Part shown: positions 32,756 to 63,000 of the stretch, one piece after another
Layout of the letters: each line of letters begins with the position of its first letter
Numbering within the stretch: position 1 is the stretch's first letter
Assembly: GCF_032118995.1 (NCBI RefSeq)
Contig: NC_092663.1
Location: forward strand, 186,001 to 250,000
DNA length: 64,000 nt
Source of the DNA: Asterias amurensis
Lineage: Eukaryota; Echinodermata; Asteroidea; Forcipulatida; Asteriidae
Direction of reading: 5' to 3'
Translations under genes and position numbers: made by a program
The notes under the pieces: model-generated
Database searches by the model: none
Told to the model about the DNA's origin: nothing
What the model saw: the letters and a program-made list of their open reading frames with translations, nothing else

Positions 32756-34115
32756 TCAAAATGATATTAGGTCTTGAACACCCGAGCACTGGTTACCTCT
32801 TGAGTCCATTCCTTTAAAATCAAACATCTCCTGTGCGACAACTGCTTGCTGGCCAAATTGCTGAATTAAATGCCCCTCTTGGAAATGGTCGCTGCTATCA
32901 TCACATGCAATATCATTCTCTTCACTGCAACATTGTTTCAATAAAGCATGGGATAATAACATTTGATGCTCAACAGAGAAATCATATGTCAGTTCTGACA
33001 AGTCTAAATGGGGTATATAATCCCTATAGAATGTGTCCTCAGTATTAAGGGTGTCAATGCGTGGGGACAGTTTGAATGGCACATCATGCAGGTAAGGATG
33101 ATTTGAGCTGCAGTTGGTAACATGAGGTTGACTATAGTCTGTGTTGATGTCTTGGCTAATGAGTCCGTTTGGAGTTTGTTGTAATGGACCATCTGTGGAA
33201 GATGGAGGCTCTGACCAGCTCCTACTAACATCCTTGTACTCGGGAAGACGATATCCAGATACCTAGAGCAAAATCAAACAAAACAAACCATTGCTCAAGT
33301 CATTATGAAATATTTCATCCAAGTTATTAGACGCATCACATTTTCAAGTAATTAAATGAATACATGGAGCGTCTACGACAGTATTGCAAAAAAAGGATTG
33401 CGAATTACAAAGAAGGTTCTTCTGAAAGCCAGAACAGAAGAGGGTTTTGGGTTGCCCGTCGAAAAAGCACTCCTACGATAACAAAACAGGTCTTGTGAAT
33501 CTTTGATTACCATGCAGTGTGAAAATCAAACTTTTTTAACTGGGTGCCGAGTTTGTGTTTGTTGTACATGTGCCGAGTTTGTGGGTGCCGAGTTTGCAAG
33601 GTGCAGAATTGAAGGTTGGTATCGTAGCAGAGCAACGGAGACTCACGCCCGCAACGACAGCATACTACGTCGTCATTCCGGAGAGCTTGGCACGCCAGAG
33701 ATCCGAGACAGTGATTACTGCGTGCCGAAATCCCCGGTGACGTCACCCGGAGCTCTGAGGCCGCCACAGGGACCAGTGATCATTTGTCCTGGAAAACTCT
33801 GTATTAGTAGAGCATGATAGGAAATGTACCCTACCTGTTGATATGAGGGAGGTGGTGGTGATAGGAAATGTACCCTACCTGTTGATATGAGGGAGGTGGT
33901 GGTGATAGGAAATGTCACCCTACCTGTTGATATGAGGGAGGTGGTGGTACTGCTGGTGGGGGGTACAATGTGTTCCTCTCACTCCAAGATTGACCAACTA
34001 TGGTGAATCCATCTTCTTCCTCTTCAACATCTAACATTGCTGGCATAGCTTCAGGATTGAGTTGGAGTGGATCAGATCTTTTCCTAAATATTGAGAATGG
34101 TGAAGTAATTGCCCT
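32756..34115 (-). CDS. UMAD1: UMAD1-like, UMA-domain protein (5' end uncertain)
   Basis: Two coding exons are sure: 33924-34115 and 32756-33262, joined in phase 0 (GT-AG), 232 residues to the stop. The first reads PFSIFRKRSDP then EEEEDGFTIVGQSW, matching the human N-terminus (FHFFRKPP, ETEADGFVLLGDT), then a proline run ending PPPPSYQQ, a PPxY motif. The second carries DVPFKLSPRI and, 34 residues on, LTYDFSVEHQMLL, matching human DVPFTLAPHV and YDFTLENSVL, the two ends of the UMA (UBAP1-MVB12-associated) domain. UMA domains occur in ESCRT-I subunits MVB12 and UBAP1; a role of UMAD1 in endosomal sorting is inferred only. About 65 residues follow the domain, longer than in human. No ATG precedes FSIFRK in the exon; a leader exon may be 35117-35167. 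The donor of the first exon is tandemly triplicated (33834, 33878, 33923). Confidence 0.88.
33818..33950. repeat. 44/45-bp tandem triplication of the UMAD1 splice donor
   Basis: Three copies of a segment with tacctgttgatatgaggga and ggtggtggtga. Each copy contains, on minus, the exon end coding PPSYQQ and the donor CAG|GTAGGG. Donor positions: 33923-33922 (used), 33878-33877 and 33834-33833. The copy next to the exon has one extra base. Use of a distal donor would run into a stop two codons past the normal junction (GTA GGG TGA). Confidence 0.92.
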
Positions 34116-57000: not shown

Positions 57001-60000
57001 TACTATGCCCAATTCCCATACTGTGAAAGTTCAAACAAATCGAAGTATGGATCTGTGAGGTTTACTGTCTACCCATGGTGTTGTAGCTCTATGAGTTAAA
57101 CACAAAGTGTCTTTTAAAGTGTCTACTACGCATGGCTGTTCTTACATGTGTGTGTATATCCTGCCCATTTCAACCAATAAGCATCCATAATGCACATGGA
57201 GTGACCTCTCATTCATAAAACGGTTGTGGATGGGTGGTGGTTTGTGTAATATGATCCCATTGTGGTCTGCAGTTCGGCGGCGAGGCGGCGCACAAGGCTC
57301 CCACACAGGGGAGGTAATTGATACATTGTGTTACTTCTAAAGTGTCTGTGGGAGACCGCCTGGGCGCTAAAGTGTTTGATGTTATTTTTTTCAATTGGGG
57401 GATCTTGAATTTTTTTTTTAAACAACCAGTTGTGGTTGCAAGACGTCTCAATTAGGGAAGACATCGCGATACTTCATCAAAACCACGATATGCCGATAAT
57501 TCGATTAACAAAAAATCAAGACGATATGGTAATCGTTAAAGAAATGGTATCGCGATTTTCGATTATATCGAGATATCGCCCAAGCTTACATCAGAATAAC
57601 CTTCATGAAGAGTGCTTGGGCATATAACTACTAAGAAACTGAAGGCTAGAGGGCATTTCTTATTATGGAAATACCTGTAATCCATATCCATCTATAGCTC
57701 TTTGTTTCATCTGAGCTGAGATATCTTTGACTTGATGACTCTTGGCTGGAGTGACTAGTAACAGATTCCTGCCTGATGCCAACATACACGTAGATTGAGG
57801 GGATACCGTCTACATAAACAAAACACATCCATGTATCAATCTAAAAGACACATAACAGATTCCTGCCTGATGCCAACATACATGTAGATTGAGGGGATAC
57901 CGTCTACATTAACAAAACACATCCAAAATATGTATCAATCTAAAAGACACATAACTAACTCTAAAAGACTCCACTCAATTGTTATGCAAAGTTAAAAGCA
58001 GCTAAATACCAGTTACAAGCCATGTATATGGCATATATTGACCATTAACATGTGTAAAATATGCGAGCTATTTTTGTGCCACAGCAATTTGTTTGCTTCA
58101 GCAACTCTATGAAATTGGTCCCAGGAGCAAACAACTCACCAATGGAGTAAACAACTCACCAATGGAGTAAACAACTCACCAATGGAGTAAACCACTTACC
58201 AATGGAGTAAACAACTCACCAATGGAGTAAACAACTCACCAATGGAGTAAACAACTCACCAATGGAGTAAACAACTCACCAATGGAGTAAACAACGCACC
58301 AACGGAGTAAACAACTCACCAATGGAGTAAACAACTCACCAATGGAGTAAACAACTCACCAATGGAGTATACAACTCACCAATGGAGCAAACAACTCACC
58401 AATGGAGTAAACAACTCACCAATGGAGTAAACAACTCACCAATGGAGTAAACAACTCACCAATGGAGTAAACAACTCACCAATGGAGTAAACAACTCACC
58501 AATGGAGTAAACAACTCACCAATGGAGTAAACAACTCACCAATGGAGTAAACAACTCACCAATGGAGTAAACCACTTACCAATGGAGCAAACAACTCACC
58601 AATGGAGTAAACAACTCACCAATGGAGTATACAACTCACCAATGGAGTAAACAACTCACCAATGGAGTAAACAACTTACCAATGGAGCAAACAACTCACC
58701 AATGGAGTAAACAACTCACCAATGGAGCAAACAACTCACCAATGGAGTAAACAACTCACCAATGGAGTAAACAACTCACCAATGGAGTAAACAACTCACC
58801 AATGGAGTAAACAACTCACCAATGGAGTAAACAACTCACCAATGGAGTAAACCACTTACCAATGGAGTAAACAACTCACCAATGGAGTAAACAACTCACC
58901 AATGGAGTAAACAACTCACCAATGGAGTAAACAACTCACCAATGGAGTAAACAACTCACCAATGGAGTAAACAACTCACCAATGGAGTAAACAACTCACC
59001 AATGGAGTAAACAACTCACCAATGGAGTAAACAACTCACCAATGGAGTAAACAACTCACCAATGGAGTAAACAACTCACCAATGGAGTAAACCACTTACC
59101 AATGGAGCAAACAACTCACCAATGGAGTAAACAACTCACCAATGGAGTAAACAACTCACCAATGGAGTATACAACTCACCAATGGAGCAAACAACTCACC
59201 AATGGAGTAAACAACTCACCAATGGAGTAAACAACTCACCAATGGAGCAAACAACTCACCAATGGAGTAAACAACTCACCAATGGAGTAAACAACTCACC
59301 AATGGAGTAAACAACTCACCAATGGAGTAAACAACTCACCAATGGAGTATACAACTCACCAATGGAGTAAACAACTCACCAATGGAGTAAACAACTCACC
59401 AATGGAGTAAACAACTCACCAATGGAGTAAACAACTCACCAATGGAGTAAACAACTCACCAATGGAGTAAACCACTTACCAATGATATTCGATCCTGGAT
59501 AGTAACATCTCTAAATGTGCCAGTAGGTGTGACTGTTAGAACACGATTCTCACATGTTGGATGCCAAGCAAACATAGATACCTCTCTTGCTCTACTAGCT
59601 GCAATACAAACGTATGCAAATCAGATCATTATTATCTGTATCAGTCAAATACTACCTCACAGGATATATAAGTTGCAGGTTTGGTGTGGCAAGTGGACAT
59701 AAGTTGGTGATGAGTTCCTCTTATGAAAGTGGTCATTTGGGTTTTATCTAGCCTAGTTTTGAATGAGTCTATTGAAGGAGCTTCTGTTATACGTACTGGT
59801 TGTTGGTTCCATTCAATGAGAGTTCTTGGCACAAAGGAAACATTTGTTGCAGTTCTTATTGGTTGAAGGGTGAGTAAACGAGATTAACGATGATTTTGCC
59901 CTGTGGTTTGAGTTGACACTGGTCTGTGTCGATAGCAGTTTTATGATGAACAGATTTATATAGGAGTGTTAAGTCGGAGATTCCTAGTACGTGTAGAAAG

Positions 60001-63000
60001 GCGATAGACAGCCCGTAACCCCTCTCACAGCAAGCCATTTGCAAGTTAAATTTGAATGTCTGATCTGATGACTCTCTTTTTAGTTACAATGCACCCTTTA
60101 AATTTGAATTCCTCAGACTATCGAGACAGTTGCTACGCCACGTGATTAGGGGTAAGCTTTTGTTTAGTAACCTCCAGGATAAGCAAACCCTGGTGCCATA
60201 CAGAATTGTGTATAGGTGTTTCTTATACGTAACCAAGCAAAACCTTGCCCCTAATCAGGTGTCGTATAATCCCCTAATCAACATTTCAAATGATCGCACC
60301 TGATCATGCACTTAAGGGTTCGGAAACTGGTTAACATTGGAAAATGCTAAACAATTGTTGGCATTAAATCAAATTTAGAGCTCAGAAGTTGACAATAAAT
60401 ACAGAATTCTGAGTTGCCAAGGCATTGGGCCCAGGGGTGGATTTCACAAAGGTAGTCCTAACTTAGGACTAGTCCTAGGCAACGCTAAGAGATAGGACCA
60501 GTCCTAAGTTAAGACCAGTAACTCATCCTAACTTAGGACTGGTCCTATCTCTTAGCATTGCCTAGGACTAGTCCTAAGTTAGGACTACCTTTGTGAAATC
60601 CATCCCTGGTCCTCATACTGCTATACATTCCTACTTACGTTGAAGATGACGTTCAGTATGTTCAACTTCACTATCTGTTGGGGATAGACATTCAATATTT
60701 AATGACATGAACTGTTAAGGCTTTGGAAGGCAATGTATCGGATGTATTTAGCAATTACACAGACCAATCTTTAAAAAACATAAATAGGTATGAAAAAGAA
60801 CAAAACCCACCAAGCCATTTGATTGACATGTACATGTACATGTAACCAAACTCTCCATATTTGTTGTTTCCTTTGCCATGTTTTCACTCCATACTCAGCT
60901 CATTATTTCTATGATCAGTTTTACACTACAAATACACAGCGCAAGAATCCAGAATATTTAAGAGCATACATGCATAAAACTATCGCAAAAGTAGAGTATA
61001 TAATATCATACAGTATTGGTATACACCGGTAACAAATTGTGAAGTTTGATTGGTCGAGTACAATCACGTGACGTGTAACAAACACGCATGTACTATGGTA
61101 GCCCTATATAGGACTCTTTCTCTGAACACAGATACAGAGTCCAACTATTAAGACCCGTTTCTGGGTTGGAAAATTTTCAAAGCCTCATAACAAGCCAATT
61201 ATTACAACAGATTCCCATTCTATGGGGGCATACATTTTTCTGCGGTGGGTTTTGGTCGTCATATCTTCTTCACAAATCCGTAATTCTCGTGAAATAATGC
61301 AGCTTCCAACGTTAAAAAATTCCCTTTCACTTTCTCACAGTGTTGTCTGCTGTTGAGCGTACGCATACTTATTCGCATGCATGGCGCAAGATGCAAGACG
61401 CATGAATTCTTGGTCACTGTATCTTGACTGCTGCACAGCCTTAACACACAAACGCAACGCAATATTTACGCGCAGTGCATCTTGCGTACACACGGCAGAC
61501 TGTTATAGTACGAACACAAATGGAAATTCCTTAACGCTGGGAGCTGCATTATTTCATGATAATGACGGATTTGTTTAGAATATATGACGATCAAAACCCA
61601 CTGCAGAAAAATATTTGCTGCCATGGAATGTGAATCTGTTGAAATTAGTGGTTTCTGACAGGTAAGATTTGAGTTATGAAGCTTTGAAAATTTTCCACCC
61701 CAGAAATGTACCCTGATATCCAGGATGTCACTGTAGTACAATGCGAAAGTGTAAGGCCGCCAGGGCTAGTACCATGGATGCACAGCGCGTAGGGTAACAT
61801 GAGTGATGTTAACCATGGTGTACATCACCTTGATCGTTCCTACCATTTGTCGATTTCCAGCGCCTAGTACGAAACGGCTGCGGATTCGTGGGAACAGTGA
61901 AGAATAAATTCTTATTTGAACAACTATTCGCCTGCTTGATAAACTATGCATACACCGTTGTAATAATGTTTGAAGATGTCAAGAGAACTTTGACAATAGG
62001 TATAAACATGTGACAAAGGTATAACATAACAATTGTTGCACACTGTGATTTGGACTTTGCTTCGAGTGTCATTTTCCCTCTCTGATGTACAAAACGCCAT
62101 GGAGCCTGTCACAGTATGCAACAATTATAAGCTGTAAAACCTTGAGTGTTGTCCTGAGTGGATTATTTTCTCCAGCCCTTTAAACTTAGTTTAGTCCAAT
62201 ATATAACCAGGAACATTGAGTAATAAATCATGTCAAATAGGCCAATAATTTCTTCATTTATAGCAGATAATTATACTGTAGTTCCTAAAAATATGTGCAG
62301 AAAGACTTTAGAGAACTTACCAACATGTTGGACATTGTATAGCTTGACAACGGAGCTGTCTCTGGCCAATGAGGCTAGTAACCCATAGCGGGATGGACTC
62401 CAAGCTAGCTTAACGATAGGCCGTGGTTCAGTAATTGTTAATACGTATATATCAATAGTTAAGGAGTTGTGGGTACATGTACATGTTAAAGCATTATCAA
62501 AGAATCACACATCTAACAGCACAAACAACAATAGACCAAGTTGAATAACAACTTTTTTGCTATGAAAGTCGCCATCTTGTAGGTCAAACCGTATGCGCGT
62601 CTAAACGAATACATGAAGCACGCAGCACGCAGTCTAAGGTAGACTAAACACAGTCATCCTCAATACATCTCGCTATAGAACTCTTGCACGCACATCACAC
62701 GCAGTGACTGTGCCAAGCTCACCGCTTTGGTGGTGAATTGGTTTATGTACACATCACTGAATAACGCACACAGTGACATTGCCCACCAATGTGGCACATC
62801 CAAGATTATTCCGACGATAACGTCAGGTGAATTGGGTCAATACCTTGCTTTCAAACCTATCATATTAAAGGATATTGGTTTATCGAAGTGTCTCCTGTCC
62901 CAGATATGAACCTGTGATTCATAATAGGATGCTAGACGATACTCTACTACTGGATCTGCTGTTAATCCATACACTGCCTTAGTTGCTGTCGCACTCTTAT

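Follow-up and report, generated by a model that had tools for sequence, protein, structure and literature searches.

How is one splice donor used faithfully when dozens of near-identical copies of it lie directly downstream? The question is raised by MIOS, a GATOR2 gene, in a 64,000-nucleotide stretch of the Asterias amurensis genome (hereafter the window; positions 186,001 to 250,000 of NC_092663.1, assembly GCF_032118995.1), where the gene lies on the minus strand and one of its exons runs directly into a long tandem array of 20-bp units. Coordinates within MIOS and its surroundings are those of the window. An earlier note on this DNA had described the array as a real donor followed by about 68 donor copies and had offered several roles for it, neutral slippage among them. 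The evidence supports that last option: the array is very probably a neutral minisatellite of the “mirage” type, in which a 20-bp duplication spanning the exon-intron border grew by slippage or unequal exchange and the copies persist as bystanders.

Counted from the exon, the array comprises 68 head-to-tail units free of indels, and Tandem Repeats Finder (TRF) calls it at 58124-59484 with a period of 20, 68.1 copies, 96% matches and 0% indels; the two counts bear out the place, unit length and approximate copy number given in the earlier note. Six unit variants occur among the 68 whole units (49, 8, 5, 4, 1 and 1 times), the commonest reading ATTG/GTGAGTTGTTTACTCC in gene orientation (49/68; the slash marks a splice border or its copy). 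Unit 1, which carries the true donor in the context CATTG/GTAAGTGG, reads ATTG/GTAAGTGGTTTACTCC, a form held by five of the 68, and the founder form ATTGGTAAGTGGTTTACTCC is indeed scattered as had been reported, at units 1, 20, 32, 46 and 65. The donor hexamer is GTGAGT in 61 units, GTAAGT in six (the true donor among these) and GTGCGT in one, with GTRAGT intact in 66 of the 67 copies beyond unit 1. The tandem donors are thus real, but their number is one true donor plus 67 copies. Nor does the unit start exactly at the exon-intron border, as had been claimed: the repeat reaches 4-5 nucleotides into the exon, and each unit joins the exon's last (C)ATTG to the start of the intron, from which it follows that the duplication spanned the border. 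A search of the whole 491.5-Mb genome with one mismatch allowed returned 67 matches to the unit, all 67 of them within the MIOS array, with no dispersed source, and the reversed unit used as a control returned none in the same genome. Since the unit is matched only here, it was most likely born at the junction, in keeping with the origin proposed earlier.

The identity of the gene, likewise upheld, is supported from three sides. Pfam placed MIOS_WD40 first for four of four exon translations and above its cut-off for two, and a PDB search with three of the four matched MIOS chains of solved GATOR2 complexes each time, the top-ranked chain for all three being 9dx2_H, labelled WDR24 (another GATOR2 subunit), with the MIOS chains behind it. 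A tblastn search with a human MIOS sequence gave 16 matches, of which 12 in-order minus-strand matches were kept (63025 to 45036, E at most 0.037) and four dropped, three being out of place (E 0.013, 0.55 and 1.6) and one in place but weak (54296, E 3.6); human residues ~405-510 have no kept match in the window. The exon that precedes the array has the border previously assigned to it, with the acceptor TATTGCAG/CTAG, a length of 119 nucleotides and a phase 0 junction to the next exon at 57809; its best Pfam family is MIOS_WD40 (positions 284-314, below the family's cut-off), and it aligns to ...ERIS of MIOS chain 9lvj_A. Across the junction the protein passes from ...QDRISL to TVSPQS with no gap needed, against a human sequence that we take to read ...ERISLAWSPIT (the part after ERIS presumed). 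This gap-free continuity places the first donor at its ancestral position and suggests that normal splicing persists beside the array.

A simple course of events may account for these features. A 20-bp tandem duplication would have happened to span the donor of the MIOS exon and would then have expanded to 68 copies via slippage or unequal exchange. Such a duplication would leave the exon-proximal donor intact, splicing at which would yield an unchanged mRNA, while every added copy would land in the intron and remain a bystander; the array would be tolerated because the first donor stays as it was.

What the copies could do if they were used was assessed from their pairing with U1 and from the reading frame. 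Duplex energies were computed against the U1 5' end, 5'-ATACTTACCTG, with U1 entered with unmodified U; this end is present in seven of the eight U1 genes read, out of 17 search matches, while in the eighth one T is missing ahead of ACTTACCTG. The true donor scores -10.2 kcal/mol, the common GTGAGT decoy -9.2, the GTAAGTTG decoy -9.1 and the single broken unit -4.8, so that the decoys, which the earlier note held to be closer to the donor ideal than the true site, pair slightly less well. They are nonetheless credible donors. Folding predictions make 9 of the 67 decoys at least as accessible as the true site, but every value is below 0.01 and the comparison is uninformative. Splicing from a decoy to the normal acceptor gives an early stop in all 67 cases, after six added residues in one and after seven in 66, and the normal product remains open across the stretch tested; intact MIOS therefore needs donor 1. 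Departures from the consensus within the array fall on 7 of 408 donor-hexamer cells and on 18 of 952 cells at other positions, with no sign of either upkeep or purging of the donor positions. As a separate observation, contig 21 carries at 3957739-3966534 a tandem cluster of nine U1 small nuclear RNA matches spaced about 0.8-1.5 kb apart.

The MIOS array is not a singular event in the Asterias amurensis genome. Minisatellites are abundant, with 24 arrays of at least four copies in 264 kb (~91 per Mb) of a non-random sample, namely the window plus twenty 10-kb pieces. Donor-heptamer arrays as such show no overall excess: the genome contains 182 matches to three spaced GGTAAGT and 215 to their reversed control, and 166 matches to three of GGTGAGT, many of them the MIOS array itself, compared with 159 for the control, these counts being of overlapping matches rather than of arrays. 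Twenty-two donor-bearing arrays other than MIOS, picked by eye among the matches listed, had their 5' flanks read, and in six of them the array starts at an exon that can be assigned to a known family and whose tail lies inside the unit; one more (L044) starts at a probable exon. L046 is a coding repeat with an open frame that matches no family, L048 is not exon-anchored, its start lying 66 nucleotides downstream of what seems to be a THAP exon's donor, and L042, of ambiguous exon status, was not counted as anchored. For the 12 further arrays no exon was seen at the border, and eight frames of at least 30 codons in seven of them had no Pfam match. Of 17 control arrays of the reversed motif, none borders on an exon with a family match, and the 20 stretches open for 30 codons or more at the edges of these arrays had no Pfam match (6/22 against 0/17; Fisher one-sided p 0.023). 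At ~91 arrays per Mb, and with units of about 30 bp, arrays placed at random would overlap some 0.3% of donors, which, with an assumed 200,000 donors, would amount to some hundreds of genes with a border array; chance placement together with tolerance can account for the border arrays observed. In the WAP array (contig 5:27913600-27915900) the exon end is repeated 45 times with a 42-bp unit divisible by three, and some units seem by eye able to read on as protein, with TGA in frame in others.

Several points weigh against the neutral reading. Use of the exon-proximal donor is read from protein continuity, and the decoys are strong, their U1 pairing being better than that of five of the seven other MIOS donors scored and about equal to the remaining two (all seven at inferred positions). 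When seven arrays (MIOS and six others) are pooled, the donor hexamer departs from the consensus less than other positions do (20/1110 against 202/4965), which could hint at maintenance, a hint weakened by the arrays having been picked for intact donor motifs. The stricter motif CAGGTAAGT in two copies gave 12 matches at four loci against four control matches, a small excess. The comparison of arrays with controls was unblinded, the arrays being hand-picked and non-random, the hit peptides trimmed by eye and the control peptides untrimmed, and three of the 17 control arrays reached the edge of the fetched piece, with one flank out of view. Finally, a count restricted to Pfam gives 5/22 (one-sided p 0.046), and the VWA_4 match does not reach the curated Pfam cut-off.

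The strength of the decoys (-9.2 kcal/mol) also favours a copy-number rheostat, in which some transcripts would use decoys and be lost to nonsense-mediated decay, such that array length would tune MIOS output, as does the early stop reached from every one of the 67. However, U1 pairing favours the true donor, donor positions within the MIOS array show no sign of preservation, and amphioxus mirages are reported (PMC3087553) to leave regular splicing undisturbed, so that this reading is held to be unlikely. A still less probable scenario, which we would regard as quite doubtful, is that an ordinary intronic minisatellite spread up to the exon and gave rise to the donor now in place, as the commonness of minisatellites in the genome and the four founder-type units inside the array might suggest. 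However, the unit includes exon sequence coding for the conserved ...SL, the protein is gap-free over the junction, and arrays anchored at donors are seen again at other, unrelated exons, where the unit carries the tail of the exon concerned. That the array buffers loss of the true donor, or yields useful isoforms through staggered splicing, as the earlier note had also entertained, is extremely improbable, because the nearest decoy, for all that it lies 20 nucleotides away with an almost equal U1 score, leads like the other 66 to an early stop, the reading frame thus contradicting both ideas. A U1 sponge seems implausible on stoichiometry.

Other border duplications occur in the window. The array-bearing intron carries a second tandem duplication over its acceptor, with the true site TATGTAG/ACGGTATCC and an upstream copy AATGTAG/ACGGTATCC; if the upstream copy were spliced to (exon copy from 57903), a stop would result. 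A third border-spanning repeat, this one over a donor, with the border ...CCTCATATCAACAG/GTAGGG, follows a probable exon that has a good acceptor (TTTTTCTTCCAG/AGGGC) and an open frame, and that has neither a Pfam nor a PDB match.

Introner elements are scattered through a genome and supply many genes with a donor and an acceptor alike; this candidate was rejected for the MIOS array, whose unit is matched at a single locus only. Amphioxus mirages, reportedly treated by Canestro et al. in 2002 and known here through citations of that work, are a nearer likeness. In PMC3087553, minisatellite-like duplications of intron-exon borders are described in amphioxus globin genes, the border repeats of Adh3, of 10-72 bp, are termed “mirages”, and both borders can be duplicated, seemingly without interference with regular splicing; PMC3902484 adds troponin C and PGBD5 to the genes concerned. 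The MIOS array resembles these cases (Adh3, the globins BflGb6 and BflGb9, troponin C and PGBD5) in that its 20-bp unit falls within the Adh3 range and is composed of part of an exon, a splice signal and part of an intron ((C)ATTG and GTRAGT...), in that several unrelated genes are affected (MIOS and the six of 22 arrays with a family match, with one more probable), and in that donor and acceptor borders alike are duplicated, the latter at the MIOS intron's own acceptor (94 bp x 2). It differs in copy number, with 68 copies against three and six in two BflGb6 haplotypes, and in its host, the papers describing cephalochordates, which is a matter of reported range rather than a structural trait. 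The amphioxus comparison includes reverse-transcription PCR and polymorphism data, whereas the MIOS array is known here from the DNA of one assembly. A human minisatellite that likewise supplies donor-like repeat units is that of IFI6 (6-16), reportedly the subject of a 1995 study by Turri et al. According to PMC4526556, two downstream repeat units of IFI6 are reported as donors, giving three mRNA species; the 1995 paper is also cited in PMC2572611. In MIOS, by contrast, all 67 decoys truncate the protein and none leaves an open frame. Within human segmental duplications, minisatellite expansion at an exon-intron border is also seen, in the form of internal tandem repeats, but the novel introns and alternative transcripts tied to them (PMC2812944) are a feature of the human cases. 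No earlier report of border-spanning arrays in echinoderms appeared among the matches listed, in a literature thinly covered for subscription journals. The MIOS array appears to belong to a known kind, the mirage, in what seems to be a new host group and a second phylum.

Table 1. Features of the window and donor-bearing arrays anchored at exons elsewhere in the genome.
Feature	Position	Strand	Description	Basis
Minisatellite	58124..59483	-	68 x 20 bp, 67 donor-like copies beyond the true donor	unit counting, TRF, genome search
True donor	59474..59479	-	GTAAGT within array unit 1, probable use	gap-free protein alignment, RISL to TVSPQS of next exon
MIOS intron	57810..59479	-	1670 nucleotides, phase 0, mostly array	junction reading
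MIOS exon	59480..59598	-	end of WD40 propeller, ends ...QDRISL	Pfam MIOS_WD40, MIOS chain 9lvj_A alignment
Next MIOS exon	57675..57809	-	...DGYGLQ end, probable donor end	tblastn match to human MIOS (E 0.037), collinear and phase-compatible
Second tandem duplication	57759..57955	-	94 bp x 2, over acceptor and roughly 50 nucleotides of next exon	TRF and sequence reading
Third border-spanning repeat	33815..33948	-	44 bp x 3, after probable exon	TRF and sequence reading
L030			VWA_4 exon, 39 bp x at least 11, array meets piece edge	Pfam match below curated cut-off
L031			EGF_laminin exon, 43 bp x at least 9, array meets piece edge	Pfam just above cut-off
L033			PP2A-A-like HEAT exon, 41 bp x 40	PDB only
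L034			WAP exon, 42 bp x 45	family match
L041			LDLa exon, 33 bp x 15	family match
L043			porphobilinogen deaminase exon, 32 bp x 3	family match
L044			probable exon, 41 bp x at least 2.6, array meets piece edge	no family match

Elsewhere in MIOS, the intron at 62445-62875 (minus strand) resembles an AT-AC intron of the U12-dependent minor spliceosome, reading CCA/ATATCCTTT ... TCCTTAAC ... ATATAC/GTATTAAC when set against the U12 AT-AC consensus. Just upstream of the exon that precedes the array, an open frame at 59641-59883 (minus strand) has no Pfam match and presumably resembles the tail of the reverse transcriptase of a long interspersed nuclear element. An Rfam scan of the window gave no matches. 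Side observations were also made on the mitochondrial genome, in which COX1 is written with AAA as N, AGA as S and TGA as W (GFGNWLIP being written with AAA and TGA), as in echinoderms and flatworms. The gene is found once on contig 23, and contig 5 has two further copies at 658874 and 675294, 16,420 bp apart; these two may represent a nuclear tandem duplicate of roughly one entire mitochondrial genome, or else an artefact of assembly. COX1 is preceded by a transfer RNA cluster of mixed strands and by ND1 on the other strand and is followed by ND4L and COX2 (the ND names come from reading the translations), an order that we take to fit a sea star, as the 22 non-mitochondrial contigs would fit the chromosome number of one. 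An amphioxus host is rejected on the mitochondrial code; a LanYFP-type probe also has no match in the genome, which is weak evidence taken singly.

A bolder proposal, to which we give rather little credence, is that border-spanning minisatellites are frequent in this echinoderm genome, perhaps in hundreds of genes, and that MIOS puts donor choice to an extreme test in nature: in almost all transcripts the exon-proximal donor would beat the 67 that lie downstream, of which 66 are intact, leakage would pass to decay, and copy number would mildly adjust the output of a nutrient-sensing gene. The interest of the locus lies in one donor being pitted so cleanly against 67 copies of itself, and in the recurrence of such arrays across genes. 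Provided that donor 1 is used cleanly, arrays of this kind would constitute ready-made experiments on how the spliceosome chooses among dozens of near-identical donors, and would also probe why junction-spanning duplications survive.
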